Shown here: one piece after another, positions 6,020 to 62,623 of the stretch
Layout of the letters: every line of letters starts with the position of its first letter
Position numbering within the stretch: position 1 is the stretch's first letter
Assembly (NCBI RefSeq): GCF_000426705.1
Contig: NZ_KE384554.1
Location: 124,001 to 188,000, forward strand
Origin: Spirochaeta cellobiosiphila DSM 17781
Lineage (GTDB): Bacteria > Spirochaetota > Spirochaetia > DSM-17781
Length of the DNA: 64,000 nt
Reading direction: 5' to 3'
Position numbers and translations under genes: made by a program
Notes under the pieces: model-generated
Told to the model about the DNA's origin: nothing
The model's database searches: none
What the model saw: the letters and a program-made list of their open reading frames with translations, nothing else

Positions 6020-6990
6020 AAATCCAACCTTTTTACTATAAAGGTGTCAATAAATACAAAAACCAGTAACAAAATATAACTCAAATAAAGAAATAGTCTG
6101 TAATGATTTTTCTTAAAATCTTCTTGATTATATTTCATCTCATCTAATTCTAGATTATTAATAGCTTCGATTGCGTTTTTTAATTCTTTGTTGTTTCCCG
6201 CTAGAATAAATTGCCCCCCTGTAGAAGAAGCAATTGACTTTAATATTTTTTGATCTACCGATGATTGAACAGGGATTGTTTGTTGTCCAAACAATGTATT
6301 TTGAATTACATATCCTTCCATATTAAAACCGATAGTGTAAACCTTAATTCCCCAATTTTCTATTAAGTTTAAAGCTTCATTAGTGGTATATTGACCAGAA
6401 TTACTATTACCATCTGTTAACAAAACAATAATTTTACTTTTAATATCCAATTCTTTTAGACGAGAAGCCCCTAGTAATAAAGCATCACCTAAACTTGTTC
6501 CATCTTCTTCCTTTGTCTTAACAATATCTATATTATCTGTAAAATCCTTCAATACCTCATGTGACATGGTTAAGGGACATAAGGTTTCTACATATTTTGA
6601 GAAGCTAATTAAGCCAATTAAATCATTTGGACGTTTATCTATAAAATCAATATAAGAAGATTTAGCTAAATCAATACGTCGAACACCTGAATACGGATCA
6701 GTAAAAACTCCCATACTTCCTGATCTATCCAATATCATCTCTATTGCTATTCCTTTATTATCAGGATACTTTTTCTTAATCCCCCAAAGAGGTCCAGCTA
6801 ATGAAACTACAAGAAGAATATATACGATAGATATTAATATTTGACTTAGTTTACTCAATAAAAAAGGGGTACTTCTTTCTATTGTATGGGATTTAAAAGA
6901 TGGGACTTTTATATTTTTCTTTGAGGGTAATAAAAAAATGAACGATGGTATAATCAAAATCAAAAATATTGGATCAGCAAAAGTGATCAT
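6016..6990 (-). CDS. batA: BatA vWA-domain membrane protein
   Basis: 324 residues. Membrane helices lie near 5-22 and 48-68, then a vWA domain whose MIDAS reads DRSGS (Asp88, Ser90, Ser92), with later conserved Thr and Asp positions (EEDGTSLGDAL; LLTDG), and a C-terminal membrane helix near 298-318. This is the canonical BatA architecture. BatA and BatB are thought to form an inner-membrane complex with BatC, BatD and BatE that acts together with the MoxR ATPase. Four-base overlaps with both neighbours indicate a tightly coupled operon. Confidence 0.9.
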   Translation of the reverse strand: MITFADPIFLILIIPSFIFLLPSKKNIKVPSFKSHTIERSTPFLLSKLSQILISIVYILLVVSLAGPLWGIKKKYPDNKGIAIEMILDRSGSMGVFTDPYSGVRRIDLAKSSYIDFIDKRPNDLIGLISFSKYVETLCPLTMSHEVLKDFTDNIDIVKTKEEDGTSLGDALLLGASRLKELDIKSKIIVLLTDGNSNSGQYTTNEALNLIENWGIKVYTIGFNMEGYVIQNTLFGQQTIPVQSSVDQKILKSIASSTGGQFILAGNNKELKNAIEAINNLELDEMKYNQEDFKKNHYRLFLYLSYILLLVFVFIDTFIVKRLDL

Positions 6991-7712
6991 GTTTCCCGTT
7001 CCTTATACCTAATAATTAAGCTCCAGTCTTTTTGTAATTGCTTATCCTCAAAAGAAGTACCTTTAAATATATAAATCGAGGATCTTCTTTCGAAATCTCT
7101 AATATCTGGAATATTTTTAATTTCTTTAGAGAGTCCATGATAGCACTGACGAAGATATCTGTACTTATCCAATCCATTATCAAACGCTATTGAAAGTCTT
7201 TCATCTTTATTTATTAAAGTCTTTTTTTTAATTGAACAATATACTTTATAGCTTAACCACAGAACCAAAGTTAACAAAAAAACAATAATTAAAACAAACC
7301 AGCTTTTATCTTTTCTAACAGTTCTTATAGGAGAATACTCATTAGTACTACCAATAATATTTGATTTTCTCACATTTATTTTTTTCATGCTTTTACCAAA
7401 TGGTACTGGTATTTCATATACACCTTTTTGTTCGGGAATAACTCTTAATATCACTGAATTATTTGTTTGCTCGTCAATAGATACAATATTCCAATTTTCC
7501 AGATTAGCAAACTGGATATTAGATTTATTGTTGAATAACCAAGTGACTGTCAAAACATCAGAAGTACTTAGCGTATCTGGATGCCATTTAACAATAACTT
7601 CATTATCATCTTTTATAACAGTAAAGGAAGACGTAAGAACCTTTTTATGCTGAAAACATCCCATAAAAAGGAACAAAAATATTATAGAAAAAAGTATGAA
7701 GGTCTTATCCAT
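6987..7712 (-). CDS. Putative lipoprotein or bitopic protein of the Bat operon
   Basis: 241 residues, family not recognised with certainty; it occupies the place where DUF4381-like proteins sit in other bat/moxR operons. The N-terminus ends in a lipobox-like LFMGC (Cys19). A beta-rich region of about 110 residues with a strand reading EQKGVYEIPVPFG follows, then a strong membrane helix (138-158) and a basic C-terminal segment. The likely layout is a small outside domain and a cytosolic tail (inference). It overlaps the DUF58 gene by 8 bases and batA by 4. If Cys19 is not lipidated, residues 5-19 are a plain signal or anchor. Confidence 0.6.
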   Translation of the reverse strand: MDKTFILFSIIFLFLFMGCFQHKKVLTSSFTVIKDDNEVIVKWHPDTLSTSDVLTVTWLFNNKSNIQFANLENWNIVSIDEQTNNSVILRVIPEQKGVYEIPVPFGKSMKKINVRKSNIIGSTNEYSPIRTVRKDKSWFVLIIVFLLTLVLWLSYKVYCSIKKKTLINKDERLSIAFDNGLDKYRYLRQCYHGLSKEIKNIPDIRDFERRSSIYIFKGTSFEDKQLQKDWSLIIRYKERET

Positions 7713-8541
7713 AGTTTATCTTGTTTCTCTGATTAAAAAAAACATATAAAGAATCAAAGTAATCGTCATATTCATTTATAATAATCTCATTAATATCCTT
7801 GTAACCATTCGATATATTCTCTTTAGTTTCAGTTGTGTATATTTCTCTATATTTACCAGTCTCACTCTCAACAAGAGGTAATATAAATCCAGACGGTAAT
7901 TGTTTTTCTATAGGTGATATTAATCTTATGGCTATCAGATCATTATTACTACCTAATTTCTTCAAAGAGTTCTCATATTTACTATCATAGAAATCACTTA
8001 ATACAAAAATTATATCACCCCTGTTAATGAATTTACTCAATGTATCAAGAGCCATTTTTATATCTGTCATTAAAGACATTGGTGATACCCCCAGAATCTC
8101 TTTTAATATCTTTTGACAATGAGTTCTACCTTTTTTTGGGGGAATATAATTTTCTATTCTATCAGAAAACAGTAATAATCCAACACGATCATTATTTAAC
8201 TGAGCAACTATAGTAATAAGAGAAGCTAACTCAGCCATCGTTTCTATTTTGGGTTTACCATTAAATTCTACATAACAGCTCTCAGATACGTCAATCACTA
8301 TATGGATTTGTAATTCTCTTTCTTCTTTAAAAGTCTTTATATAAGGAATACCTGCTCTTGCTGTTACATTCCAATCAATATGTCTTACATCATCGCCTGG
8401 AGTGTACTCTCTTACCTCCATAAATTCCAAACCATGCCCATGAAAAGCACTATCATAACTACCAAGAAGAAGAGTACTAACCCTTTTTTTTATGAGCATT
8501 TCTAATTTTTTAGCTTTTTGGAATAATTCTTTTTCATTCAT
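7705..8541 (-). CDS. DUF58-family protein
   Basis: A 278-residue soluble protein with the DUF58 signature REYTPGDDVRHIDWNVTAR (residues 44-62) followed by a vWA-like domain with DVSES (84-88). DUF58 proteins nearly always sit directly after a MoxR AAA+ ATPase and before vWA membrane proteins, as here. They are thought to be adaptors in MoxR chaperone systems. It overlaps moxR by 4 bases (ATGA) and the next gene by 8. The length is usual for the family. Confidence 0.88.
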   Translation of the reverse strand: MNEKELFQKAKKLEMLIKKRVSTLLLGSYDSAFHGHGLEFMEVREYTPGDDVRHIDWNVTARAGIPYIKTFKEERELQIHIVIDVSESCYVEFNGKPKIETMAELASLITIVAQLNNDRVGLLLFSDRIENYIPPKKGRTHCQKILKEILGVSPMSLMTDIKMALDTLSKFINRGDIIFVLSDFYDSKYENSLKKLGSNNDLIAIRLISPIEKQLPSGFILPLVESETGKYREIYTTETKENISNGYKDINEIIINEYDDYFDSLYVFFNQRNKINYG

Positions 8542-9521
8542 GGTATTGGTATAATCTTAATAATACTATCAATTATCTCATCACTATTTATTTCTTTGGC
8601 AAGTGCTTCATAAGACAAGACTAATCTATGTCTTAATATTGGTTTAGATACTTCAATAACATCATTGGGAATAACATAGGTTCGTCCACTCATTAATGCA
8701 TTAGCTTTTGATGCAAGAACTAAATTAATAGTTGCTCGGGGAGAAACTCCATAATCTATGTAGTCTTTCATTTTTGAATCATAAAAATCAGAGTGTCGTG
8801 TACATTGAACGATATCAACTATATATTCTTCTAAACTCACATCTATATATATCTCATCAATGAGTTTTGATATTTGTAGAATATCATCAAAGCTAGCAAC
8901 AGGCTTAATAGAATCATCAATATTCTTCTTACCCCGCCTTCTTAATATTTGAAGTTCATGATCTTTTTGGGGATAGTTTACTATTAATTTCATCATAAAT
9001 CTATCTACTTGAGCTTCTGGTAAAGGATAGGTTCCATCCTGATCTATTGGATTCTGTGTAGCCATAACCATAAATGGTAAATCAAGATCAAAGGTATCTT
9101 CTCCAATTGTTACTTGTCTTTCTTCCATTGCTTCCAACAAAGCTGATTGAACTTTTGCAGGAGATCGGTTGATCTCATCTGCTAAAATTATATTTGTAAA
9201 GATAGGACCTTTTTTAGGAAAGAAATCTTCATGTTGAGGACTATAAATCTGTGTCCCAATAATATCAGCTGGCAATAAATCAGGAGTAAATTGAATACGG
9301 CCATATCCACCACCAACAAGACTCGATAAAGTCTTTACAGTTAATGTTTTTGCTACACCAGGAACGCCCTCTATTAATACATGCTGACCACAGATAAGTA
9401 CGATCATTAAATTCTTTATTAATTTTTCCTGACCAATTATTCTATCAGACATTTCTCGAATAATATTATCTAAAATCTCAACAGACCTTTCAACTTTTAC
9501 TTCGAGTTCCTCTTGTAACAA
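8538..9521 (-). CDS. moxR: MoxR-family AAA+ ATPase (TTG start)
   Basis: AAA+ ATPase of the MoxR family, first gene of the bat operon, presumed to remodel or load metal or partner proteins on the vWA proteins encoded downstream. Numbered from the proposed start, Walker A GVPGVAKT is at 52-59, Walker B IILADEIN at 111-118 and sensor-1 ATQNP at 144-148. The longest open frame begins at 9617, but its first 32 residues are unlike MoxR. TTG 9521 has AGAGGAG 8-13 bases upstream and gives 327 residues, the usual family length, so I prefer it. It overlaps the DUF58 gene by 4 bases. Confidence 0.88.
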   Translation of the reverse strand: MLQEELEVKVERSVEILDNIIREMSDRIIGQEKLIKNLMIVLICGQHVLIEGVPGVAKTLTVKTLSSLVGGGYGRIQFTPDLLPADIIGTQIYSPQHEDFFPKKGPIFTNIILADEINRSPAKVQSALLEAMEERQVTIGEDTFDLDLPFMVMATQNPIDQDGTYPLPEAQVDRFMMKLIVNYPQKDHELQILRRRGKKNIDDSIKPVASFDDILQISKLIDEIYIDVSLEEYIVDIVQCTRHSDFYDSKMKDYIDYGVSPRATINLVLASKANALMSGRTYVIPNDVIEVSKPILRHRLVLSYEALAKEINSDEIIDSIIKIIPIP

Positions 9522-9766
9522 TGCAAAGCTCCTCTGGTATAGAATGTAGTAGTCAGATACTATACTAAACACTTTATGATATACAGAGCAAGACAATTTG
9601 TGAGGGAAAAGATTCAAGTATCACCTACTAAAAAGAGAATATGAAACAGATACTTAGAAAAGAAAGAACGATTATTGCTACAACGTGCAACTCTTCTACA
9701 AAGGTTAATTCCACTATCTTCATCCAAAGGTTGGCAGACCACCAAAGCATAGTATAAAATAGGTTT
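9522..9766. other. Divergent intergenic region between moxR and the ZIP gene
   Basis: About 245 bases without a convincing gene; it should hold the promoters of the bat operon (leftward) and the ZIP gene (rightward). A minus-strand frame (9628-9849) runs through it but overlaps the start of the ZIP gene and looks non-coding. For the ZIP gene, TTGGCA (9731-9736) and TATAAA (9753-9758) are spaced 16 bases. I saw no convincing -35/-10 pair for moxR and no riboswitch-like structure. Confidence 0.5.
9731..9758 (+). promoter_or_regulatory. Candidate sigma-70 promoter of the ZIP gene
   Basis: TTGGCA (9731-9736), a 16-base spacer and TATAAA (9753-9758). Transcription would begin near 9765, only about 2 bases before ATG 9767, and there is no proper Shine-Dalgarno, so a leaderless mRNA is possible. 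Confidence 0.4.
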
Positions 9767-10474
9767 ATGACATCAATATCATCTATTATTCTCTTCGCTT
9801 CAGCTGGAGGTTTTCCTATCTTTATTGGGGGGCTTCTTTCTGCGTTCATTCAACATAGAAAGATTCCAATAAAAAATGAGCTAAATCATTGGTTGGTCGC
9901 TCTCGGTGGAGGGGCCCTGTTGTCAGCTATATCTTTTGCGCTTATACCAAGGGCACTTGAATCCTTAAAATTAATAGAGATGACTTCTTTTTTTCTACTG
10001 GGAACAATAAGTTTTATGATTATTGACCAGTTATTAAGCAATAGTGGCAAATCCTATTCACAAGTATTATCTATGATGATGGATTCTATACCAGAAGCCA
10101 TAGCCTTAGGAGCTTCCTTTGCTCATGATCATACACTTGGAATATTATTAGCCCTTTTTATTGGATTACAAAACTTTCCAGAAGGTTTCAATTCCTATAA
10201 CGAATTGAATAAACAATTAAGTAAATCAAAAACGCTATTTGTATTGTTCACAATGACTTTTATGGATATTAGTGCTGCTTTATTGGGGAATGCGTTTCTG
10301 GTAAACAAAGCGAAAATCATTGCTTCAATAATGTCTGTCGCAGCTGGAGGAATTTTATATTTGATTTTTCAAGATATTGCTCCCCAATCCAAGCAGAAAA
10401 GAAAAGGATTTCCGGCAACAGGTGCGAGTTTAGGGTTCCTACTAGGTTTACTTGGAGAACAACTTATCAAATGA
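9767..10474 (+). CDS. ZIP-family metal transporter (GufA-like)
   Basis: 235 residues with about eight hydrophobic helices. The paired ZIP metal-binding motifs are visible: QNFPEG (135-140), as in GufA-type ZIPs, and DSIPEA (106-111) where the usual form is HNxPEG. Asp106 thus replaces the common His and Ser107 the Asn, while Glu110 is kept, so the metal preference may differ. Predicted function is import of Zn2+, Fe2+ or Mn2+ across the inner membrane. It stands alone between two minus-strand operons, and its stop directly abuts that of udk. The ATG lacks a Shine-Dalgarno. Confidence 0.8.
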   Translation: MTSISSIILFASAGGFPIFIGGLLSAFIQHRKIPIKNELNHWLVALGGGALLSAISFALIPRALESLKLIEMTSFFLLGTISFMIIDQLLSNSGKSYSQVLSMMMDSIPEAIALGASFAHDHTLGILLALFIGLQNFPEGFNSYNELNKQLSKSKTLFVLFTMTFMDISAALLGNAFLVNKAKIIASIMSVAAGGILYLIFQDIAPQSKQKRKGFPATGASLGFLLGLLGEQLIK

Positions 10475-11080
10475 TTAAACGTATCTTTGTAAAAAGGATG
10501 TCAGCACTTCAATGGCAATCTCATTAAAACCACCTTCTGGTATAATGAGGTCTGCATACATCCTTGTCGGTTCAATAAACTCATAATATCCAGGCCGAAC
10601 CACACTCTGATACTGAGATATAACCGAATCAACAGTACGACCACGTTCCTTCATATCTCTTTGAAGTCGTCTAATGAAACGAATATCATCAGGAGTATCA
10701 ACATAGAGCTTTAAATCTATAAGGTCTCTAACTTTTTTATCAAAAAAAATCATTATCCCTTCAAATATAATAACTGTTGATGGTTTAATTGTTATGGTTT
10801 CTTCTTTTCTAGCATGCTTAACAAAATCATATTGAGGCATTTCAATGGACTCTCCCCTCTTGAGGGCACTAAGATGCTCTTCCAATAGATCAGAGTCAAA
10901 AGCATTGGGATGATCAAAGTTAAAATCAGTAATATTTTCATTACTAATGTGTTTAGCCGTTTTATAGTAATTATCCTGAGGGAGGACAACGAAATCAGGT
11001 AATACTTCTGATATCCTTCTGACAATAGTTGTTTTACCAGATCCTGATCCTCCACATATACCTACAATCTTAGTTTCCAT
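10475..11080 (-). CDS. udk: Uridine kinase
   Basis: 201 residues. P-loop GGSGSGKT (10-17), PQDNYYK substrate motif, the NFDHPNAFD loop and the IIFEGIMIF strand are all typical of uridine/cytidine kinase (ATP/GTP + uridine to UMP, pyrimidine salvage). Length is normal. It overlaps the 3' end of the HExxH gene by 11 bases and so appears to be the last gene of the chemotaxis transcript, although it has no evident link to motility. Confidence 0.93.
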   Translation of the reverse strand: METKIVGICGGSGSGKTTIVRRISEVLPDFVVLPQDNYYKTAKHISNENITDFNFDHPNAFDSDLLEEHLSALKRGESIEMPQYDFVKHARKEETITIKPSTVIIFEGIMIFFDKKVRDLIDLKLYVDTPDDIRFIRRLQRDMKERGRTVDSVISQYQSVVRPGYYEFIEPTRMYADLIIPEGGFNEIAIEVLTSFLQRYV

Positions 11081-11879
11081 GTAATTGCTCTTCCTTCAAA
11101 CGTTCGATCTCCATTTCTACATTCACAAGTTCCATTTTTAAAGCTTGTATTTTTTTTAGTAATCTTTTTTTGTTTTTTTCATTTTCTTCCAATGGATCCA
11201 TAGCAGTCTTTTCTGTTTTTAAATCAGAAGTTATCATTACAGCAGTTTTGCCCTGTTTCATTTGGTTTTGAGCTAACTGTCGTTGTTCAGGGTTACGGAT
11301 ACCAGCTAAAGTTTTCATATTATCAAATCCAATTTTTGGATCTAAATTTAAAGTTGAAATCTTCATAATACTTTTTGCATTAGTTTTTTGAATGCCTAAT
11401 TGTCTATCAAGATAATCTTCAAAACTCAAGTGATATTCCTGACAAATATTAAATGCATTTAACAATTTCTTTCCCATCTCTACCATTAATTGACCATTTT
11501 GAGAGATATAGCTTTGTTTAAGTTCTTTAGTTAATTCAACAAGTTCAGGGATTTTATCATACTCTCTGTCATATAGATTCAGGTCTTCAGCTTTATATAA
11601 TAGGTTATGAAATATACTCCAAAACTCACCTGTATGAGATTTTGCACTTTTAGGAGCTTTATCTGAACAAAAATGTACATGGTGAGCAAATTCATGAATA
11701 GCTGTATATTTTATAGCATTATCAGTCTTATGATTTTTGTTATGTATTAGTATTTCACGACTTTCTGTTTTATACAGCCCATCAACTTTTTTACTTTCCT
11801 TCCCTGTGAACGTAACTGTAAAGTCAGGTACATCACTTTTAAGCTTCAATAAGAGGTTTTTGATTGTCTGTTGATTCAT
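11070..11879 (-). CDS. HExxH putative zinc metallopeptidase with C-terminal coiled coil
   Basis: A 269-residue cytosolic protein with no signal peptide. It carries HEFAH (62-66) inside the hydrophobic YTAIHEFAHHVHF helix, the zinc-binding motif of zincin peptidases, with a SprT- or ImmA-like feel. The last 45 residues are strongly charged and heptad-like (KKRLLKKIQALKMELVNVE), predicting a coiled coil. The substrate is unknown. It lies 2 bases downstream of a response-regulator gene in the che operon and overlaps udk. A role in chemoreceptor or flagellar protein processing is only a guess from context. Confidence 0.6.
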   Translation of the reverse strand: MNQQTIKNLLLKLKSDVPDFTVTFTGKESKKVDGLYKTESREILIHNKNHKTDNAIKYTAIHEFAHHVHFCSDKAPKSAKSHTGEFWSIFHNLLYKAEDLNLYDREYDKIPELVELTKELKQSYISQNGQLMVEMGKKLLNAFNICQEYHLSFEDYLDRQLGIQKTNAKSIMKISTLNLDPKIGFDNMKTLAGIRNPEQRQLAQNQMKQGKTAVMITSDLKTEKTAMDPLEENEKNKKRLLKKIQALKMELVNVEMEIERLKEEQLHGN

Positions 11880-11881
11880 TC

Positions 11882-12283
11882 TTATATTTTTAATTCAATT
11901 CCTAATTTGTGAATAGCCTTAATTAGCTTTTCTTTGCTAATTGGTTTAGGAAGATAACCTTCACATTGTGATCTAAAGGCTTCAATAATATTTTGAGAGT
12001 CATCCAGAGCAGTCATCATTAATATGCTACAGCGTTCTAGACCTTTAATTCCTGCAGTGGATTCCATATCCCTTATGTCTTTAAGAACAGTCTGTCCATC
12101 CTTATTAGGTAACATAATATCTAATAAGATTAAGTCGTAAGGAGTTTTGTCTTTTATAGAAGTAGAAAAGAAATGAAGAGCTTCTTCTCCATCAACTGCT
12201 GTATCACATTCTGCAGCATCCTTTAAAAGACGATATACCATGGTTCTACTAGTAAAATCATCTTCTACTATCAATATTTTCAC
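11882..12283 (-). CDS. Response regulator, receiver domain only
   Basis: 133 residues, a single CheY-like receiver domain: acidic pair Asp8-Asp9, phospho-acceptor Asp55 (LILLDIMLP), Thr91 and Lys113 in the KPIS motif. There is no output domain. It is the second stand-alone receiver in this operon, overlapping cheX by 4 bases, so CheX is encoded between two CheY-type proteins. It may be a phosphate sink or carry a distinct signal (inference). The symbol is left blank because the gene at 12727-13092 is the better candidate for the motor CheY. Confidence 0.88.
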   Translation of the reverse strand: MKILIVEDDFTSRTMVYRLLKDAAECDTAVDGEEALHFFSTSIKDKTPYDLILLDIMLPNKDGQTVLKDIRDMESTAGIKGLERCSILMMTALDDSQNIIEAFRSQCEGYLPKPISKEKLIKAIHKLGIELKI

Positions 12284-12723
12284 GGTTCTACTTCCTTTAA
12301 TTTCACAGCAACTTGTATATTTTGACCTTCACAATCATATGTTCTTGTAAAACAATCTTTTAATAATTCTCGTTCTTCAAACAAAATAGAGGGCACTGAC
12401 ATCTTGTATTTTTGACTATGTTTTAAAAGAACGGACATAAAGTTACCTGCTAGTATATTTAATATCTCCAGTAGGCAGTCGTCAATTTTTTGATCTTCTA
12501 AAGAATCCCAATCATCTCCAAAAATATTTTCAACCAGTTGTCTTTTAGATGCAACGCTAAGAAGAAAAAACATACTTCCATTATAGGGAGCTAAGAAGTC
12601 AATAGCAAATATATTGGTATATTCAATGCTATCTTGAGTACTAGGCATAACATCAAGAAATGCCATATCTGCCATTGTTTGTATTGTAGCCTGATCTAAA
12701 GCCAAGTCTATTTCATTTCTCAT
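12280..12723 (-). CDS. cheX: CheX-like CheY-P phosphatase
   Basis: 147 residues of the CheC/CheX/FliY fold. The catalytic ExxN motif is seen at Glu86-Ile-Leu-Asn89 (LLEILNILAGNF), followed by the typical Gly-Asn (93-94). One such motif and this length fit CheX, the phosphatase that dephosphorylates CheY-P in spirochaetes such as Borrelia and Treponema. It lies 3 bases after cheY and overlaps the second receiver gene by 4 bases. The residues outside the motif are divergent. Confidence 0.8.
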   Translation of the reverse strand: MRNEIDLALDQATIQTMADMAFLDVMPSTQDSIEYTNIFAIDFLAPYNGSMFFLLSVASKRQLVENIFGDDWDSLEDQKIDDCLLEILNILAGNFMSVLLKHSQKYKMSVPSILFEERELLKDCFTRTYDCEGQNIQVAVKLKEVEP

Positions 12724-52870: not shown

Positions 52871-54109
52871 ATGAAATATAAATTTATTCTAGTAACCTTA
52901 ATACTACTGCCTTTCATTCTCTACAGCCAGGATAATAAAGTATCTGCACCTTTTATAAGTAGACTTCAGATTCATTTGGACAGAGGATCTGCCATTATTA
53001 CATGGAAGGACAGCCGAGACCTAATAGAGGGTAAATATAGGGTTTTACGAGCTGGACAGCCCATTAATAATAATAATTATCCAAGTGCCCAAGTTATGGG
53101 TGATGTAGAATTGGGAAAGGAAAAGTTCATTGATGATACAATTCAAGTAGCAGGAACATATTACTATGCTGTATTGGGAGTGACTACGGACGAGGAGATT
53201 ATTAATACCTTTATACCCTATCGAAACACAACGGTTCTTCCTTTTGAGGTCACTGAAGCTGATTTAATGCGAGCTGCTTTAAGCAATATAACTATGTCAG
53301 CCTCAACTCAAAATGATAGAATAATTTTAAAAGTGAAGAATGTCCCTGACGGAGTAAATATATTATACTTCAGAAGTTCTACAATAATAGCTACAAAAGA
53401 AGATCTTCAGAAAGCTTATCAGATACAACCAAACAAACTAGGTTCACAGCAATATGCTGATGTACCTATACCTGGAATCCAATACTATTATGCCGTTATT
53501 GATGATAACAGCTTTCAAACGGACCAATATGAATTAGAATTAGGGCGTAATAGTACGAGAACTCCAGTTAAACTAGGTATAAAAGAACAAAAGATATCTA
53601 CTAATAATCAGGAGATGCGTTCCTTGCCTTTACCCCAAATAAACTTATATGAAAGTATTGATTCTGATACGAAGTTAAATGACAGTCGATGGAGTCTACC
53701 TGAATGGAAAGACCTTTCTGAAGAATCTAAAGCCAATGTTAGAAGATATATGGCTCTTTATGATGGACTTGAAGAAGACAGATTAGAACTAAAACATCTT
53801 AAGAAATATGGACATAATGTATACGAGGACAATGTTAATCTGATGACCATCATTAATGGTCCTATAAGTAATGGAGATTTCACCCAAAGCAAAGATTTAC
53901 TAAAAGCGTATTTAACTCTCAACTTAAATGATATGGAAAAAGCTTCAGGTCATTATTACTTGGGAATATCTTACTTATTCCTTGGAGATAGTAAAAATGC
54001 CTTATTAAATTTTCTTATAACTAAGGACTATTTTAAAGAAGAATCCACCTACTACATTGAATATATAATGAATAACTGGATTACCGATTCACCTTTTAAC
54101 GACGAGTAA
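52871..54109 (+). CDS. Secreted fibronectin-III-like protein with helical C-terminus
   Basis: 412 residues, signal peptide (1-19, ending ILYS), then two fibronectin-type-III-like beta regions (about 25-125 and 135-220; PFISRLQIHLDRGSAIITWKD, and YYYAVLG/YYYAVID repeats at their ends) and a helical TPR-like C-terminus (about 355-405, ASGHYYLGISYLFLGDSKNA). Probably envelope-associated. It is a lone plus-strand gene whose 3' end overlaps the convergent GH57-like gene by 14 bases. Function unknown. Confidence 0.68.
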   Translation: MKYKFILVTLILLPFILYSQDNKVSAPFISRLQIHLDRGSAIITWKDSRDLIEGKYRVLRAGQPINNNNYPSAQVMGDVELGKEKFIDDTIQVAGTYYYAVLGVTTDEEIINTFIPYRNTTVLPFEVTEADLMRAALSNITMSASTQNDRIILKVKNVPDGVNILYFRSSTIIATKEDLQKAYQIQPNKLGSQQYADVPIPGIQYYYAVIDDNSFQTDQYELELGRNSTRTPVKLGIKEQKISTNNQEMRSLPLPQINLYESIDSDTKLNDSRWSLPEWKDLSEESKANVRRYMALYDGLEEDRLELKHLKKYGHNVYEDNVNLMTIINGPISNGDFTQSKDLLKAYLTLNLNDMEKASGHYYLGISYLFLGDSKNALLNFLITKDYFKEESTYYIEYIMNNWITDSPFNDE

Positions 54110-56012
54110 CTTTAATATCTAAAGAGACATGCCAACTTTTACTTTTTAACAATGACAATGACCAATAAGGAAGATATTGGGAGTTCTGATAAATATTCCT
54201 CTCTCCTAATTCATCTTCTACCGGTAATTCAATTGACTTAACAGCGCTCTTAGGGGGTACAGAGAACTGAATAGATACAACCCCCTTAGACTGTTGGTCT
54301 TGAAAATTTAGTTCTTCGTGTTCTTTTTTAGGTAGCTCGCTTTCATCAATAAAAATCTTCTGACCATCAACTAGAGTAAAAATCTTATATTCACCTGTAA
54401 AATCGAGAAACGCTAAGTTTATCTCAGGGCAGAATTCAAAATGTAAATCCGTTGTGGACACATTTTCAATATAATAATCAACACCGACAGAACGACGTTT
54501 AAAATGATACTCCTTACGCACCTTAAGAGCATGACTCTTCCCTTTATATGTTAAAACGCCTCTTCTGGTTAAGGATATCATGTTTTTTTCTTTATCTAAT
54601 TCAATCAAACGGTAGGCCCCATAAGCAAAATCTCCCATATCAAGCGCATCCCGCCATTCATTAACGGGAAGACCCATAGGATAAAAATGATCATGAAAAG
54701 CCTTACCTTTTATATTCTTTTCAAAAGCACTATAAGCTTGAAAGCTATTAAGAACATTCCAATTTAAAGGAAAATAATCCCATTGAAATAAAGCACCACC
54801 ACTTTGATGAACATAAGCATTATAATCATACCCTTGATAGAGATACTCATCTCGCCCATCCATATCATAGTCCTTTACCAGTAGACTTGGCATAAAAATA
54901 CCTTTCTCACGGGTAGTCTTTTCTGCTTCCAACAGACTGGCATAGACATCCCGTCTTATATGGGCATCAGCTACACCACCTAGTCGGCCCAGACAATAAG
55001 CCTGATGAAGTTGCCCTCGCCATAATAATTCACGGGCTGTCTTCTTACGCTGTTTATCACCTTTGATTTGTAATACCAGAGAATGAACAAAGACCATCTT
55101 TGAATAAATAAGTCGTACATCTTTATAGTAATTGACAAGGTTCTTAAAAGCCCCTTTGGCAATACTTCTATTTTTCATGTTGCCCCAATTATTATATTGG
55201 TCAATTGTTGTTGGAGAAAAATAATGAGTTGAATAAGCAACCTTGTCATTTCGAATCTCATTTTGAGGAGCCACTAGCTCCAATTCCTGACTATGCTCCC
55301 TAAAAAGAGACAATAATCTATCCAACCAAGGGATTCCACCTTGCTCAATAATCTTATTCTGGAGTTCTAAAGGATCGATAGCCAAGGCCATATAACGAGC
55401 GCCATCCTGTTGAAGGGCAATTAAATTACCAATAATTTCTTCAGGACTTAAGGCTGTAATCCCTCTTCCAGTTCTCCATAAAGGAAAAACTTTGATAGCT
55501 CGTCCCTGATCTTCTACATTATGAATCTGATAGGTCGATTTGGGAGAGATTCCAAGCTGTAATAGATCAGTGTCAGGTAAAAAAGTGTAAGTCATACCTG
55601 AACGATTTAGCATACTAGCCAAATTTTCATCCCACACCAATTCTGGGACCCAGAACCCCCTAAATCTTTTTCCAAAAGATTTACGTAGAAAAGTAGACAT
55701 CATTTCAATCTGTCCTAATCTATCAGGACCGGGAATAATCGGAAGAAATGGCTCATGATATGCCCCACAAAGCATATCTATCTGCTTCGTCCTGAGCATC
55801 TCTCCAAGAACACTTCCATATTCAGGATGATGTTTCTCTATCCACTTAAGAGTACTTCCAGCCACATAGTGCACAGCTGGCAAATCGGTGTACCTATATA
55901 AGGTAGCTATAAAGTGTTTCAGTATATGCTGATAATAATGTTCCCAATCTTCACCAGAGTTCGACTTAGGTAGAGATGTATAGGTGACAAATACAATTTT
56001 CAATTTACTCAT
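54096..56012 (-). CDS. GH57-family glucan-active protein, possibly inactive
   Basis: 638 residues, related to GH57 4-alpha-glucanotransferases and alpha-amylases: the motif-2 region (PDRLGQIEMM), the nucleophile-like Glu124 in FWVPELVWDENL, and a C-terminal all-beta domain of the DUF1926 kind. The first GH57 motif (HxHQP) is missing, the strand reading VFVTYTSLPKSNS instead, and motif 4 is hard to place (AIDPLEL). It may be a modified or inactive glucan enzyme. It has no signal peptide. It overlaps the convergent gene at its 3' end. Confidence 0.7.
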   Translation of the reverse strand: MSKLKIVFVTYTSLPKSNSGEDWEHYYQHILKHFIATLYRYTDLPAVHYVAGSTLKWIEKHHPEYGSVLGEMLRTKQIDMLCGAYHEPFLPIIPGPDRLGQIEMMSTFLRKSFGKRFRGFWVPELVWDENLASMLNRSGMTYTFLPDTDLLQLGISPKSTYQIHNVEDQGRAIKVFPLWRTGRGITALSPEEIIGNLIALQQDGARYMALAIDPLELQNKIIEQGGIPWLDRLLSLFREHSQELELVAPQNEIRNDKVAYSTHYFSPTTIDQYNNWGNMKNRSIAKGAFKNLVNYYKDVRLIYSKMVFVHSLVLQIKGDKQRKKTARELLWRGQLHQAYCLGRLGGVADAHIRRDVYASLLEAEKTTREKGIFMPSLLVKDYDMDGRDEYLYQGYDYNAYVHQSGGALFQWDYFPLNWNVLNSFQAYSAFEKNIKGKAFHDHFYPMGLPVNEWRDALDMGDFAYGAYRLIELDKEKNMISLTRRGVLTYKGKSHALKVRKEYHFKRRSVGVDYYIENVSTTDLHFEFCPEINLAFLDFTGEYKIFTLVDGQKIFIDESELPKKEHEELNFQDQQSKGVVSIQFSVPPKSAVKSIELPVEDELGERNIYQNSQYLPYWSLSLLKSKSWHVSLDIKVTRR

Positions 56013-56082: not shown

Positions 56083-56664
56083 TTATCTTATTGTGGGTAT
56101 TAACCACGAAAAGACCAAAGACAAAGTACTAAATATTACAATTGCCAAAAACAATATTGGTAGTCCTTGTAAGATTGGCACAGGAGGTTCCAGTTCATAT
56201 CTATCACGAATAGCAATGACTAACTTAACAGCCACCCACAATCCTAACATGAACAAAATAGCTCCTACCAAGGCCAGGACCAAAGCTATATCATATTGTG
56301 TCAAAAATAGCAAATACGCCGTAATTAGAGCAGAATCACCCCATTTATACGGTTCTGATGAAAAATATTCCTTAAGGGAAGCATCATAGAACCGAACTCC
56401 ATACATCAAAGCCCATTTGCTAAAACCATATATAATTAAAATCACAGGAAAATCTAACACATCCAGTTCATAAGGAACTAAAACAAAGTGACTGATAGGC
56501 CAATAAACGAGAGTTAAACCAAGTAAGTGAAGAGTATTCCCGGTAATCTTCAAACCAAAATCTCTTCGTCCCTCCAGTATAAGAGGCAAATAATAAGTAC
56601 TTAACCCATAATAAAATAAAGCGTTTCCAGCTAACAACACAAATAATAAATAACTCACAATCAA
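56083..56664 (-). CDS. RnfA/RnfE-like membrane protein lacking cysteines
   Basis: 193 residues, six predicted membrane helices in the RnfA/RnfE (NqrD/NqrE) pattern, with a short loop LVPYELDVLDFPVI. True RnfA and RnfE carry conserved cysteines that hold an intramembrane 2Fe-2S cluster; this product has no Cys at all. It starts at the rnfD stop with a 4-base overlap and is the third gene of the Rnf-like set. The family call rests on context and helix pattern. Confidence 0.55.
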   Translation of the reverse strand: MIVSYLLFVLLAGNALFYYGLSTYYLPLILEGRRDFGLKITGNTLHLLGLTLVYWPISHFVLVPYELDVLDFPVILIIYGFSKWALMYGVRFYDASLKEYFSSEPYKWGDSALITAYLLFLTQYDIALVLALVGAILFMLGLWVAVKLVIAIRDRYELEPPVPILQGLPILFLAIVIFSTLSLVFSWLIPTIR

Positions 56665-57725
56665 AACCTCTTCATTATGTTCTGGTCGATTTTTTCTGGT
56701 ATTTTATTGAGAAGAGGAATAATAGCGCTCACCAACAATAATCCTTCTAAAACACCATCCTGAAAAGGGGAAAATATCCTAAGGAGAGCCACTATAATAC
56801 CAGATAACACAGCATAAATACTTTTTGCTATCTGAGCATTAGGAGCAATAGTTATGTCAGGTAATAGATAGAAACAAGATAACCAGAAAAAACCGGTACT
56901 CATATGGAAGAGTATATCCCCGGAAAAATAACCTGTACTAAAAGGTAGACCACCAAGTAAAAAAACGACAAAAGCATAAGTCACTGCATAGAGAAAAGGA
57001 ATTGTCCAGTCAATAATACCTCTAATAACTAAATAAGCCCCTCCCAATACGATAAAAAAGAGAGTTATCTCACCTAGGAACCCTGGAAATTGGCCCGTCA
57101 ATAGGTCAATATACCCTTCCGGTAGTCTAATGGATAAAGGATCAAGAATGAAATGGTTGATTTGATTCGTAAAAAAACCATCCCATTCACTTTTAGGAAG
57201 ACCTGCCTGATCCAAAATGGCCATAGGATGACCATTAGTTGCCTTTTTAATAGTCATCAAAGGATTAAGTGTGGACTCAATACCATTCATATTACGAGAC
57301 ATATGCCATTTATTGAATAAATCAGGCCAGGAAAATCTTACAAAGACATATCCCCAAACCACAGGATTCATCCAATGTCTTCCCACTCCCCCTAAAATGC
57401 TCTGGGTCAAAAACAACCCAATAAAAGAAGACAAGAAGGGAAAGACAACATTAGTAGAACCTGAAAAGAGAAATCCATTCAGCAAGCTATAAAAAACAAC
57501 AGAGCGTATGTTTATTCTGTTTTTCATAGCAAAATGGCCTAATCCCTCCGCAGCTAATCCTCCTAAGAAGGAAAAGAAATAAATAAATAGGACATAAAAT
57601 CCCTGTAAATACACAGCATAAACAAGAGCGGGAACTAAGCTAAGGGATAATTCGAAATAAAGAGACTTTGTCGTTATATTACTATGCAAGTAAGAACTAG
57701 GAGCAAAACTATGTTGTCGATGCAT
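56661..57725 (-). CDS. rnfD: RnfD-like membrane subunit
   Basis: 354 residues, about nine membrane helices in the RnfD/NqrB pattern, with GEITLFFIVLGGAYLVIRGIIDW. RnfD normally carries covalent FMN on Thr in an SGATPL-type motif; the corresponding stretch here appears to read TNGHPMA, with no Thr at that place. It overlaps the rnfC-like gene by 17 bases. It may have kept a membrane electron-carrier or ion-channel role, or become something else. Confidence 0.78.
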   Translation of the reverse strand: MHRQHSFAPSSYLHSNITTKSLYFELSLSLVPALVYAVYLQGFYVLFIYFFSFLGGLAAEGLGHFAMKNRINIRSVVFYSLLNGFLFSGSTNVVFPFLSSFIGLFLTQSILGGVGRHWMNPVVWGYVFVRFSWPDLFNKWHMSRNMNGIESTLNPLMTIKKATNGHPMAILDQAGLPKSEWDGFFTNQINHFILDPLSIRLPEGYIDLLTGQFPGFLGEITLFFIVLGGAYLVIRGIIDWTIPFLYAVTYAFVVFLLGGLPFSTGYFSGDILFHMSTGFFWLSCFYLLPDITIAPNAQIAKSIYAVLSGIIVALLRIFSPFQDGVLEGLLLVSAIIPLLNKIPEKIDQNIMKRF

Positions 57726-58980
57726 TAATGGTATCCTGGAATTTATTTATTAAAGGAATATGACTAGGGCAGACAAAATCACAAATTCCACAGAAAGAAC
57801 ATAAATCAAGCCCTTCATCAAAGGCAATTTCCGTTTTATCTGCATCTATTAACATAGATAAACGACTTGGATTAAGTCTACTTGGACAAGTACTAATACA
57901 CCATCCACAATGAATACAGGAGTATTCCTCTCCTTTAGTACGATGCTTGTCTTCTAGTATAAACAAATTGTTAATATCTTTTGTGATAGGCATATCAAGA
58001 TCCTTGATTTGAGCACCACGAAAAGGCCCTCCAACTAGAACTTGATCATTATTTTCTATAGAGACTCCACAATCTTCTAATATAGTCGATATTTTTGTTC
58101 CTATCCGCACTTTTAAGCAAACCGGTTCAGCATCAACAGAAGTTATACTAAGGTATTTTTCAACCATTGGCTTATTATTATTTATAATATCAAAAAGACT
58201 ATGTAAAGAAAGAGTATCATAAGTGATAACATCCTCTTTATTAAGTCCGAGAACTTTAATCAAAAGGCTATCATCACCTTGAGGATATTGATTTCTCGTA
58301 GGGACAAAATTGATATCCAGTCCCAATCTCTGACAGCGATTTTTTATTCGGTTAAAATCTTTTTTGTCTTCACTTGTATAAGCCCAGACAAAACGAGCCT
58401 CTCCATAAACATTATGAAGAACATTTACAGTCGAGATGAGATCTTCCCATCGCGTTTGAAGAAGTACTTTTTCATTAAACTGATAGGGTTCTTTAGGAAC
58501 AGAGTTAATAATCACACAGTTAATCTTTTTAGGATCTTCTGCTAATTTTTGACTCAAAGGATAACCTTCTGAATCAAGGGCGCCAAATTCTAGCACTTTA
58601 TCCCGGAGCATTTGAATATTGTATTCCTGCTTTGGTTCTGGAGGAACATCCTTACCAAGACGATGAAATTCCCCACCAAGACTAATTAAAAATGCTTTTG
58701 TCTTAATACCTGACCATGTCTCATAAGGAATAACCCTCTCAATGCGACCTGGAACAGGGGAATGAATAGAGACGGAATTTATACCGTCTCCTTTAATCAA
58801 TATCTGTTCTTCTTGTACAAAATCACCATATTCTACCAAAGCAGTACCTTCGGAGCCTTGATGTTGAACCCAGGGGATAAGAGCCAACTTTGGAAGTTGG
58901 CCATTCTTAACTTCTAATATTTGAACCTTTTTCATGGGGAATAACTCGACTCCCCCGGCGAAACTACGAGGTATGTTCAT
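57709..58980 (-). CDS. rnfC: RnfC-like iron-sulfur protein
   Basis: 423 residues. The start SFAGGVELFPMKK is RnfC-like. The two C-terminal 4Fe-4S motifs are intact (Cys355, 358, 361, 365 and Cys394, 397, 400, 404). But the glycine-rich FMN/NADH loops are degraded: GGAGFP reads DSEGYP and NGAECEPY reads NSVPKEPY. A GGPFRG motif near 310 remains. Possibly it passes electrons without NADH. It precedes the rnfD-like gene and follows a 402-residue membrane-protein gene. Confidence 0.82.
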   Translation of the reverse strand: MNIPRSFAGGVELFPMKKVQILEVKNGQLPKLALIPWVQHQGSEGTALVEYGDFVQEEQILIKGDGINSVSIHSPVPGRIERVIPYETWSGIKTKAFLISLGGEFHRLGKDVPPEPKQEYNIQMLRDKVLEFGALDSEGYPLSQKLAEDPKKINCVIINSVPKEPYQFNEKVLLQTRWEDLISTVNVLHNVYGEARFVWAYTSEDKKDFNRIKNRCQRLGLDINFVPTRNQYPQGDDSLLIKVLGLNKEDVITYDTLSLHSLFDIINNNKPMVEKYLSITSVDAEPVCLKVRIGTKISTILEDCGVSIENNDQVLVGGPFRGAQIKDLDMPITKDINNLFILEDKHRTKGEEYSCIHCGWCISTCPSRLNPSRLSMLIDADKTEIAFDEGLDLCSFCGICDFVCPSHIPLINKFQDTINASTT

Positions 58981-58988
58981 TCAATATC

Positions 58989-60197
58989 CTAAGAAAAAAT
59001 CGTTATCTTTTTATTATTGTATCGATATAGCAGTATAAATGCTGAAATAATCAAAATCATATACCAGTATATCACATAGTACGAAACTTTAAAGGGGGAT
59101 GCTTTAGCAAAACTCATCTGACTAACCTTCTCTAAAAATTGGAATTTACCCAACTTAGCCTTCGATAAATCCTCTTCCCAAGTCTGATCATGCAGGCTAT
59201 GGGTATTAAAACCTTTCAATTTGACGGAATATTTTTTGTATTCTTCCACCAACATCGTTGCAGACATTTTTATTTGATCCACATCCTGATTTGCTAACAC
59301 ACGTTCTTCCACTCGCCCTTGAGAGAAGGAACATAACACAAGGGACACACTAGATAAAGCCATTAAAACAAATAAAGATCGAAAGGAATATTTCGAAGGA
59401 AGGATTTCTACTGGAACAAATATTTCATGCTCCCGTTTAATAAAATCTTTATAAGTCCTCAAAGTCATGATATAAGCAATCAAAGATACTCCTTCTATCA
59501 AGGTCCAAAGAATCACTAAAACTTTCGCCATAAATAAACTAGGAATAAACAAACAGGCGATGACTCCATAGACAACCTTGGACCATTTTTCTTCTTTATA
59601 GAAAACAATAGTCCATACAAGAGCTGATAGTAGAAATATAAAAGGGAAGAAGCCTAAATTAAAAATAAACGCTCCTTGTACAGCAAACCAAGGAACAAGA
59701 TGAGGACGTTTTAACTTATATGAAGTAAAACCCAAAATGAAAATAAATAGAACATAGAATAAAATGAAAACAGCCGGTCCAGTTACAGGACTAAAGGCTT
59801 CAATATCACTCTCCCCAAAGGAAGTAACAAATTCATCATATAAAGTGGGATCAGTAAGTAAGACCAACAAACCATTTGAGGAATGAAAAAAGCTTTTAAG
59901 ATCATCAAAGACGCTATCATAACGAGGATCATCTCTATACATATAATCATCCACATCTTTTAGTTTGACCTCTTTATTCTCCCAAAATGATATAAGAGGT
60001 ATAGTTAAATTGTCCAAACTAATGATATTTTTCTTCAAATGATCTGATAAACCATCATATTGGTCCACAAAGTTATCACCTCTATAGTTGAATAGAAGCA
60101 AATCAGAGGTTATATTCTCGGGCCTATACCTTGCAAAAATTATAAAGGACAATATGGTACAAACCAGTAAAATAAGAGGCCAGAAGTACTTTGTCAT
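58989..60197 (-). CDS. Unknown membrane protein preceding the Rnf-like genes
   Basis: 402 residues, no family recognised. A signal-anchor helix (5-22) is followed by an extracytoplasmic domain of about 115 residues, a cluster of membrane helices (about 140-250), another near 272-292, a second soluble stretch rich in Lys/Glu and a final helix (about 378-396). It lies 8 bases upstream of the rnfC-like gene, in the same transcript, so it is a likely extra subunit. The usual RnfB and RnfG are missing, but this has no CxxC or FMN-binding motif to replace them. Confidence 0.65.
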   Translation of the reverse strand: MTKYFWPLILLVCTILSFIIFARYRPENITSDLLLFNYRGDNFVDQYDGLSDHLKKNIISLDNLTIPLISFWENKEVKLKDVDDYMYRDDPRYDSVFDDLKSFFHSSNGLLVLLTDPTLYDEFVTSFGESDIEAFSPVTGPAVFILFYVLFIFILGFTSYKLKRPHLVPWFAVQGAFIFNLGFFPFIFLLSALVWTIVFYKEEKWSKVVYGVIACLFIPSLFMAKVLVILWTLIEGVSLIAYIMTLRTYKDFIKREHEIFVPVEILPSKYSFRSLFVLMALSSVSLVLCSFSQGRVEERVLANQDVDQIKMSATMLVEEYKKYSVKLKGFNTHSLHDQTWEEDLSKAKLGKFQFLEKVSQMSFAKASPFKVSYYVIYWYMILIISAFILLYRYNNKKITIFS

Positions 60198-60204
60198 GAA
60201 GTTA

Positions 60205-60684
60205 TTAGAGGGAACAGAAAGCTACAGCAATAAAAAAGCCCAGGATTATACCAACAATAACCTCTGTTGCCTTATGCCCTTTTACCTCCTTAACAGGTAG
60301 ATACTCAATATCTAATTGTTCCTGTAAATCTGCCCCTAATTTATTCATTGTTTTTGCTTGAACACCAGTAGCTTTTCTCACGCCTAGAGCATCTCTTATA
60401 GTCAAAATAGCATAAAACAGACTCAACAAAAAGACGGCTGACTCCGTGCCTTGCGTAATCCCAATGGAAGTGGTTAGACTAGTGACAGTGGAACTATGAC
60501 TGGATGGCATCCCGCCTGTTCGCCATACTAATGTTATAAGAAGGTTTCTATCAAGCCGCCCTCTGGCTTTAAAGGCTTCGATGAGAGCTTTAATACCCTG
60601 GGCTATGAACCAACTAAATGTGGCACTTAAGAAAATAGGATGACTGACAACTCTGTACAGTCTGTCGATTGGAAAGTCGGCCAT
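60205..60684 (-). CDS. Divergent PAP2-family membrane protein (DUF212)
   Basis: 159 residues with about four membrane helices and the DUF212 motif GGMPSSHSST (57-66). The PSSHS element corresponds to the PAP2 phosphatase signature, so it may act on lipid phosphates in the inner membrane. It lies 7 bases upstream of the 402-residue membrane-protein gene and may lead the Rnf-like transcript. Confidence 0.88.
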   Translation of the reverse strand: MADFPIDRLYRVVSHPIFLSATFSWFIAQGIKALIEAFKARGRLDRNLLITLVWRTGGMPSSHSSTVTSLTTSIGITQGTESAVFLLSLFYAILTIRDALGVRKATGVQAKTMNKLGADLQEQLDIEYLPVKEVKGHKATEVIVGIILGFFIAVAFCSL

Positions 60685-60780: not shown

Positions 60781-61731
60781 TTGCGTAGGGATAGATTTAA
60801 AAGCTACAAATTAACGGAAAATGAACAAGGCAAAAGGGTTGACAATATTGTAAAATCTTTACTGCCTCAACTCAAAAAAGGTGACATATACAAAGGGATA
60901 CGTAAAAAAGATATTCTTATCAATGGTAGGAAAACAGAGGCCAACTATAATGTGATGACCGGAGATTCTCTTGATATATACCAAGGATATATTAAAAACC
61001 TCGATGAGATATCTCAAGAAGAAAATCATTTGACCTTCCATCTACCACCTATTGTTTATGAATCAGAAGATATTGTGGTCTATAATAAGATGGATAATCT
61101 AATAACACAAGGACCGGCCAGTCTTGAGAGTGAACACTATCAATATTTTATATCAAAAAAAATCGATAGGGTTAGCTTTAGACCAGGCCCCCTTCATCGA
61201 CTTGATAAAAACACTTCAGGTCTTGTGTCTTACAGTCTTAGCTTAAAAGGAGCCAGAAGTTTTACAGAAGCTATCCAGGAAGGAAGAATTAAAAAGCTAT
61301 ACCTAGCAGTCTTAGAAGGCCATGTAGAGAACAAGATCCATTGCCAAGCACCACTGATACCAAACTCAATGAAAACCCTTGTGTTTGAACAAGCAAATGA
61401 TAAAACAGTAGAGGCCGAAACTATTTACCATCCTCTCGAATATAGAGATGGTAAAACGACAGTAATCATTGAGTTACTAACAGGAAGAACTCACCAAATC
61501 AGAGCCCATGCCCAATACATTGGCTATCCAGTGGTGGGGGATTATAAGTATGGAACTAAGGATGAACATATGTACCTGCATAGTGCAGCCCTCTACCTTC
61601 CTACTCCTATAACCGAAGAAGGACAATGGATATGGGGACAACCACCGAAATACTACAACAAGTACATTTCTCTGGAAAACATAGAAAATCTTATCCTAAA
61701 CTTCATCAAAAAGAATTATATTACACACTAG
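60781..61731 (+). CDS. RluA-family pseudouridine synthase (TTG start)
   Basis: 316 residues. An S4-like N-terminal part (1-70, with RVDNIVKSLLP and KDILINGRK) and a catalytic domain with HRLDKNTSGLV (139-149; Asp142 is the catalytic Asp). LTGRTHQIRAH is also typical. It isomerises uridine in rRNA or tRNA; the exact target is not clear from sequence (RluC, RluD or RluA). AGGAG lies 5 bases before TTG 60781. It leads a three-gene plus-strand cluster. Confidence 0.92.
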   Translation: MRRDRFKSYKLTENEQGKRVDNIVKSLLPQLKKGDIYKGIRKKDILINGRKTEANYNVMTGDSLDIYQGYIKNLDEISQEENHLTFHLPPIVYESEDIVVYNKMDNLITQGPASLESEHYQYFISKKIDRVSFRPGPLHRLDKNTSGLVSYSLSLKGARSFTEAIQEGRIKKLYLAVLEGHVENKIHCQAPLIPNSMKTLVFEQANDKTVEAETIYHPLEYRDGKTTVIIELLTGRTHQIRAHAQYIGYPVVGDYKYGTKDEHMYLHSAALYLPTPITEEGQWIWGQPPKYYNKYISLENIENLILNFIKKNYITH

Positions 61732-61738
61732 AGGACAT

Positions 61739-62623
61739 ATGAAAAAAATAAAGATAATGCACCATTTGTATTGGGTTCTCAAAGGAGTCAAAGTCTATGC
61801 CCTTGTAGGAAAAAGTGGAACAGGCAAGTCCTTTAGAGCCAAACTAGTAGCAGACAAATATCACATCAACTATATAATAGATGATGGTCTTTTTATTAAA
61901 GAGGATCGTATTCTGGCAGGTAAGACGGCCAAACAGGCAGACGGATACCTAACAGCTGTAAAAACAGCAATATTTGAAGATATTGAGCATAGAGAAAACG
62001 TCCTAAAAGCCCTGACAAAGGAAAATTTTAATAAGATATTACTTATAGGGACAAGTCGTAAGATGGTTAACAAGATAGCGGATAGACTCGAATTGCCCCA
62101 TATATTCAAGTACATTCAGATAGAAGACATAGCCTCCAGATCAGAAATCGAACAAGCTCTCCATAGTAGAAATCAGGAACAGAAGCATGTGATTCCCGTT
62201 CCAGCTGTGGAAGTTGGAAAAGACTATTCCAGTATACTTGCAGATTCTGTTAAGATCTTCCTCAAAGGTGGAATCAACTTATTCCGCAAAAAGAAAAGTT
62301 TTAATAAAGCTGTAGTCAGACCTCAGTTCCATCAAAACAAAGGACGGGTGAGTATTAGTGAATCAGCTCTTAGTCAAATGATTCTACACTGTATTGATGA
62401 ATTCAATGACACTCTTAAGGTATCCAAAGTGAGCATTAAAAACCGTAACGAAGGATACATGGTTCATCTCACCATAACGGTTCCCTTTGGCCAATCTCTT
62501 CCCAGTAGCCTACAAAAGCTTCAAAATTATATTATTGACAGCATTAGTCGTTATACTGGTATCCTAGTAGAAGAAGTGCATATAACAGTAGAGACAATCA
62601 AAGGTGGTATTAGAGATGATTAA
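61739..62623 (+). CDS. P-loop domain fused to Asp23/Gls24 domain
   Basis: 294 residues. N-terminal P-loop fold with Walker A GKSGTGKS (24-31) and a strand IIDDGLF, a basic linker (about 155-200), and a C-terminal Asp23/Gls24 domain (about 205-290) with TVPFGQSLPSSLQKLQNYI and VEEVHITVETI. Asp23 domains usually occur alone in Gram-positive envelope-stress proteins; the fusion is unusual. It lies 7 bases downstream of the pseudouridine synthase gene and overlaps the next gene by 8 bases. Biochemical role unknown. Confidence 0.78.
   Translation: MKKIKIMHHLYWVLKGVKVYALVGKSGTGKSFRAKLVADKYHINYIIDDGLFIKEDRILAGKTAKQADGYLTAVKTAIFEDIEHRENVLKALTKENFNKILLIGTSRKMVNKIADRLELPHIFKYIQIEDIASRSEIEQALHSRNQEQKHVIPVPAVEVGKDYSSILADSVKIFLKGGINLFRKKKSFNKAVVRPQFHQNKGRVSISESALSQMILHCIDEFNDTLKVSKVSIKNRNEGYMVHLTITVPFGQSLPSSLQKLQNYIIDSISRYTGILVEEVHITVETIKGGIRDD

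Follow-up and report, generated by a model that had tools for sequence, protein, structure and literature searches.

The four genes at positions 56083-60197 of a stretch of 64,000 nucleotides from Spirochaeta cellobiosiphila DSM 17781 (contig NZ_KE384554.1, positions 124,001 to 188,000; hereafter, the window) encode a membrane protein, designated M, and RnfC-, RnfD- and RnfA-like proteins. It is probable that they derive by erosion and repurposing from an ancestral Rnf locus of spirochaetes, being kept for something that is under selection. In the canonical path, electrons pass from ferredoxin via RnfB, the cluster shared by RnfA and RnfE (the A/E cluster), the flavin mononucleotide (FMN) of RnfG, the FMN of RnfD and riboflavin to the RnfC clusters, the FMN of RnfC and NAD+ (PMC9588780, PMC11889175). 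Since RnfB and RnfG, the A/E cysteines, the RnfD threonine and the FMN/NADH loops of RnfC are missing, this path very probably cannot run through the window set, where it would be broken at several points, and ferredoxin:NAD+ pumping by this set is probably impossible.

Loss of cofactor sites in the window proteins

In known Rnf complexes (residue numbers follow C. tetanomorphum or A. woodii) the ligands of the intramembrane [2Fe-2S] cluster are Cys25 and Cys113 of RnfA and Cys25-26 and Cys108-109 of RnfE. FMN is carried by Thr153 of RnfD and Thr164 of RnfG, RnfD also contains riboflavin, and RnfC holds FMN and two [4Fe-4S] clusters (PMC9588780, PMC11889175).

The window RnfA has no cysteines at all, and the columns of Cys25 and Cys113 are occupied in the alignment by Tyr and Ala; hence, as the preliminary description of this DNA had claimed from the letters alone, the protein provides no ligand for the intramembrane cluster. 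The same description had the flavin-linked threonine of RnfD lost, placing the site at TNGHPMA. The conclusion stands, but the site is a different one: Thr153 of C. tetanomorphum RnfD (7zc6_D) aligns to Asn154 in GIESTLNPL. Asn is also given by the family alignment, one gapped alignment yielding Leu instead. Thus, the conserved Thr and Cys that a proper alignment might have placed at the expected sites are lost. Among the riboflavin-ligand columns of the window RnfD, the Asp and one of the two Asn are retained.

In the window RnfC all eight Fe-S cysteines, forming two [4Fe-4S] motifs, are retained. According to the motif table, the GGAGFP position reads DS--EGYP and the NGAECEPY position reads NSVPKEPYQ, in agreement with the earlier statement that both loops are gone, and the FMN/NAD(H) site (GGxGxP, ECEPY) is lost. 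No RnfG profile matches were found in the 64-kb window, and the single match of the RnfB profile there is RnfC itself, with no separate RnfB, so neither gene lies alongside, as previously noted. Judging from sequence, the window set retains as cofactor sites only the two [4Fe-4S] motifs in RnfC and a part of the RnfD riboflavin pocket.

Other Rnf-type genes in the same genome

RnfE, absent from the four-gene block, appears to have moved rather than disappeared. A fifth PF02508 match, on contig C5 (L005, positions 835-2058), is an RnfE-type domain (75 bits with the E profile versus 21 with the A profile) without cysteines. A long loop, typical of RnfE proteins linked to M but not of the canonical copy, is present. 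The domain is fused to approximately 200 residues without assigned function, and its gene overlaps an AI-2E transporter gene. We infer that this domain is the relocated RnfE of the window module, and the loss of RnfE from the module was rejected. Hence, homologues of the Rnf membrane core (RnfC, RnfD, RnfA) stand together in the window, with RnfE unlinked on C5.

Moreover, a complete canonical rnfB-C-D-G-E-A set is located on contig C28, and ApbE is present in this genome. Contig C1 carries an Nqr-like nqrB-C-D-E-F set (L075, positions 4795-8663), with no nqrA in the 12 kb fetched around it. NqrB-type matches like the one on C1 recur in many genomes of the class.

Ancestral locus and routes of erosion

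The search for the same gene set in other spirochaetes, suggested earlier, yielded the locus across the class, with a complete ancestral form. In many other spirochaete families the same place is occupied by a DUF212 gene, the gene of an approximately 510-residue M, a complete rnfC-D-G-E-A-B set with intact sites, and a glycoside hydrolase gene of family GH57. The ancestral locus of the class is reconstructed as DUF212-M-rnfC-D-G-E-A-B-GH57, the window locus being an eroded form of it. In the majority of eroded loci, those of Borrelia-like and Treponema pallidum-like genomes included, the gene immediately before M or rnfC is DUF212, and GH57 adjoins the Rnf genes in most loci.

Losses of residues and genes are graded across families (residue table). 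In L084 every gene and every cysteine is kept, and the RnfC FMN motif is gone. L083 and f17 have lost the A/E cysteines with RnfG kept (the RnfD threonine being kept in L083 and the RnfD site lost in f17), while f81 shows the opposite, RnfG and RnfB being lost and the cysteines kept. No single nested path can accommodate such losses, and the comparison indicates erosion by different routes in many lineages, the number of independent erosions not being settled by the gene tree, which has long branches. In the Treponema forms the riboflavin-aligned Asp of RnfD is lost.

The fate of RnfG also differs. In several families and in T. pallidum, rnfD and rnfE are still separated by a divergent gene that is RnfG-like but has no FMN threonine; RnfG-like proteins of this kind are kept in f2, f3, f8 and f11. 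RnfG is truly absent from the window, f81, f77, f6 and Borrelia-like genomes, as far as profile sensitivity allows RnfG to be called in fast-evolving loci. The loss of RnfB is confirmed by the gap between rnfA and GH57, which collapses from approximately 700-950 bp to 17-216 bp where RnfB is lost (86 bp in the window locus).

Borrelia-like and T. pallidum-like loci

The syphilis and Lyme disease bacteria are very probably among the carriers of the worn-down cluster. One genome (G056) was identified as T. pallidum, since its RnfD gene (173952-174851) matches the published position of tp0151, 174174 (PMC7162541), and the Borrelia-like label was inferred from gene content and prfB as the next gene.

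The T. pallidum-like locus (L194, positions 5931-12513; G056) is organized as DUF212-C-D-G-like-E-A-GH57, without M or RnfB, and has neither the A/E ligand cysteines nor the FMN threonine of RnfD; in L194 a 155-residue RnfG-like frame without the FMN threonine lies between rnfD and rnfE. A published proposal describes the T. pallidum RNF (tp0151 rnfD region) as a functional ion pump that oxidises flavodoxin (PMC7512555, PMC11371664). L194 is the same eroded locus as that of the window, and in the present alignment the genes of the proposed pump lack the A/E ligand cysteines, the RnfD FMN threonine and RnfB.

The Borrelia-like locus is organized as DUF212-M-[C-D fusion]-A-prfB. It resembles the window locus in gene order, in the presence of M, RnfC and RnfD, and in an RnfA without ligand cysteines, but RnfC and RnfD are fused into a protein of 772-773 residues (L154, positions 5508-7826; L156, positions 5768-8089) with none of the eight Fe-S cysteines. 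The riboflavin-aligned Asp of RnfD is lost here as well, and neither ApbE nor an FMN_bind protein was found in Borrelia-like genomes. As the only Rnf homologue in these genomes is a C-D fusion without an Fe-S motif, and ApbE is absent, any function would have to be non-canonical. The Borrelia-like M carries a lipobox; it is probably bb0071, a putative lipoprotein, transposon mutants of which failed to be recovered from tick larvae (PMC6516651). No Rnf other than the eroded set is present in Borrelia-like and T. pallidum-like genomes and in one further genome (G138).

Selection on the eroded genes

The ratio of nonsynonymous to synonymous substitution rates (dN/dS) in pairs of eroded genes is mostly 0.05-0.4, and 0.07-0.21 in Borrelia-like pairs; a few values for E, M and A reach 0.4-0.65, at near-saturated dS. 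The eroded genes are under purifying selection, not in decay.

Protein M

The four coupled genes of the preliminary description are indeed tightly packed open reading frames, but the 402-residue subunit is not unique to them: it is an orthologue of the approximately 510-residue M, whose family profile finds it in 221 of 395 genomes of the class. The aligned motifs are DPRxD (DDPRYD in the family alignment) and H-x-x-F-x-P-x-x-I, and compared with its relatives the window protein has its second extracytoplasmic domain largely deleted. M had initially appeared to be an orphan, as a single-sequence search matched nothing outside its own genome; this was overturned by the family profile. A scan of genome contigs with P0003 returned no spirochaetes, and no relatives of M were found by sequence in Pfam or PDB.

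The AlphaFold model of the window M is poor (predicted local distance difference test score, pLDDT, 65) and gave no fold match. In the model of the L085 orthologue (pLDDT 82), a first transmembrane segment leads to a periplasmic beta-alpha-beta-beta-alpha-beta domain and a transmembrane bundle, after which come another domain of this type and the final transmembrane segment. Top Foldseek matches of this model are mostly members of the RND superfamily (MmpL5, NPC1L1, AcrD), the best having E=2.3e-3 (MmpL5), none passing 1e-3 and the template modelling (TM) score being 0.26; in fold comparison, Z of 7-9 is found among RND and unrelated chains alike. The two periplasmic domains are at most suggestive of an RND/SecDF-like architecture. 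Matches to Wzc (Z 9, approximately 120 residues) were judged to reflect a common helix-plus-domain arrangement.

L159 (positions 4789-8907), L204 and L205 are organized as DUF212-M-GH57 or M-GH57, and hardly any rnf gene, or none, separates M from GH57. Such loci suggest that M has its own role.

Organization of the window locus

All genes of the window locus are on the minus strand, and the four-gene block lies between the DUF212 and GH57 genes. The upstream neighbour (60205..60684) encodes a DUF212 (divergent PAP2-like) protein of 159 residues (P; PF02681, E=1.5e-38). It is followed by M (58989..60197), assigned by family alignment as a shortened orthologue of the spirochaete protein preceding rnfC, by the RnfC-like protein of 423 residues (57709..58980) and by the RnfD-like protein of 354 residues (56661..57725; PF03116, E=9e-51). 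The RnfC-like protein matches TIGR01945 with E=3.4e-68, though below the cut-off of that model, and its closest solved structure is 8ahx_C (E=7.6e-40). By these profile matches, the homology of the window RnfC and RnfD is secure.

The RnfA-like protein of 193 residues (56083..56664) is at the detection edge of public models (TIGR01943, only E=0.04). Its identity is backed by a pairwise match (E=1e-8) to a homologue in a syntenic locus, and a profile made without the window protein scores it at 25 bits. The rnfC/rnfD and rnfD/rnfA pairs overlap. The last gene (H, 54096..56012) encodes a GH57 glycoside hydrolase or 4-alpha-glucanotransferase-like protein (PF03065 and PF09095). On the other side of the cluster, genes for a pseudouridine synthase and a P-loop protein (60781-62623) diverge from it; this gene pair is also found beside the locus in L158, so that synteny extends beyond the operon.

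Comparison with known systems

With Rnf (RnfABCDGE; C. tetanomorphum 7zc6, also 8ahx and 9eri) the window set shares homologous RnfC, RnfD and RnfA, an unlinked RnfE, the rnf gene order and the two [4Fe-4S] motifs of RnfC. Unlike Rnf, the window locus has no RnfB or RnfG, A/E cluster cysteines, RnfD FMN threonine or RnfC FMN/NADH loops, and it contains an extra gene, M. The membrane core is also common to Na+-NQR (NqrABCDEF). NqrA is an RnfC homologue that has lost its redox cofactors (PMC11889175), providing a precedent for a cofactor-free cap; however, NQR keeps the D/E cluster and the flavins of NqrB and NqrC and has gained NqrF, none of which the window set has.

Possible function and alternative explanations

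Our best guess is that the window genes encode a repurposed, largely non-redox membrane complex. This fits the earlier suggestion of a derived complex not used for NADH-ferredoxin pumping, strengthened by the comparison across the class, although the accompanying picture of a unique subunit and no RnfE was wrong in detail. In the most likely of the mechanisms, a tentative one that as a whole is still less likely than not, RnfC would cap RnfD from the cytoplasmic side, the D/A/E folds would move or gate an ion, the RnfC clusters and riboflavin would act as a redox sensor or a short side-wire (entirely lost in Borrelia-like genomes), and M, if it has an RND/SecDF-like architecture, would couple the ion path to periplasmic work. 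A second complete Rnf probably took over energy conservation, freeing the old locus for erosion; the window genome, with its complete Rnf on C28, is one of the eroded-locus genomes having a second set, and Borrelia-like and T. pallidum-like genomes would later have lost theirs. By family, a further RnfD-type gene elsewhere is found in 13 of 15 eroded cases versus 3 of 13 intact ones (p=0.002).

Several observations weigh against this interpretation. The eight RnfC cysteines are conserved in every eroded form except the Borrelia-like ones, which argues for some remaining electron transfer. By genome, the correlation with a further RnfD-type gene (31 of 41 genomes with an eroded locus versus 3 of 19 with an intact one, p=2e-5) spans related genomes, so that its significance is inflated by kinship, and RnfD was told apart from NqrB by profile range. 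The RND resemblance of M is weak (Foldseek E=2e-3, TM score 0.26, Z 7-9). Finally, in a few genomes (L159, L161) M occurs without RnfC and RnfD; M is therefore not necessarily part of the complex; instead of being a genuine Rnf subunit, it may go together with DUF212 and GH57.

The conserved RnfC cysteines, together with the Asp and one of the two Asn aligned with riboflavin ligands in the window RnfD, would be expected of a shortened redox complex, in which a cytosolic donor reduces the RnfC clusters and then the RnfD riboflavin, and ion transport is still driven or gated by this half-circuit, or electrons pass from it to an acceptor in the periplasm. We give this a minor but real chance: the Borrelia-like forms have lost both the eight cysteines and the Asp, yet are still under selection, the Asp is also gone in the Treponema forms, and no acceptor is known. 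It is considerably less likely that an active redox pump is formed in which the window RnfC, RnfD, RnfA and M, as alternative subunits, join RnfB, RnfG, RnfE and RnfA of the canonical Rnf. The intact Rnf that was to be looked for elsewhere does exist on C28, with ApbE in the same genome, but the eroded set has its own RnfA and a matching cysteine-free RnfE, and electrons would stop at RnfG, as the window RnfD lacks the FMN threonine. Moreover, T. pallidum-like, Borrelia-like and G138 genomes lack a second RnfD that could serve as a partner, and with the eroded set as their sole Rnf, borrowing of intact subunits is unlikely as a general explanation.

Fast evolution and the stepwise loss of subunits could also be features of a decaying pseudo-operon, heading for loss once the second Rnf took over. 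This we consider highly improbable, since reading frames and neighbour genes are maintained throughout the class, eroded pairs, including the Borrelia-like ones, have dN/dS values well below 1, the locus has survived strong genome reduction in host-bound forms, and the bb0071 mutants mentioned above, presumably affected in M, were not recovered.

Erosion followed by repurposing thus remains the preferred explanation. In its broadest form, which we regard as plausible but somewhat short of an even chance, a redox ion pump would have been turned more than once across Spirochaetia into a non-redox machine of M, RnfC, RnfD and RnfA/E with a new task, surviving in the agents of syphilis and Lyme disease and, in Borrelia, having no known cofactor site. 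Rnf is regarded as a redox machine under strict conservation; across a whole class, the electron path is seen here to be removed piecewise, with the scaffold under selection, and the eroded loci are natural mutants for asking what the Rnf core does without electrons. The finding bears on the open question of how T. pallidum makes enough energy, and on the flavin-based Rnf pump proposed for it.

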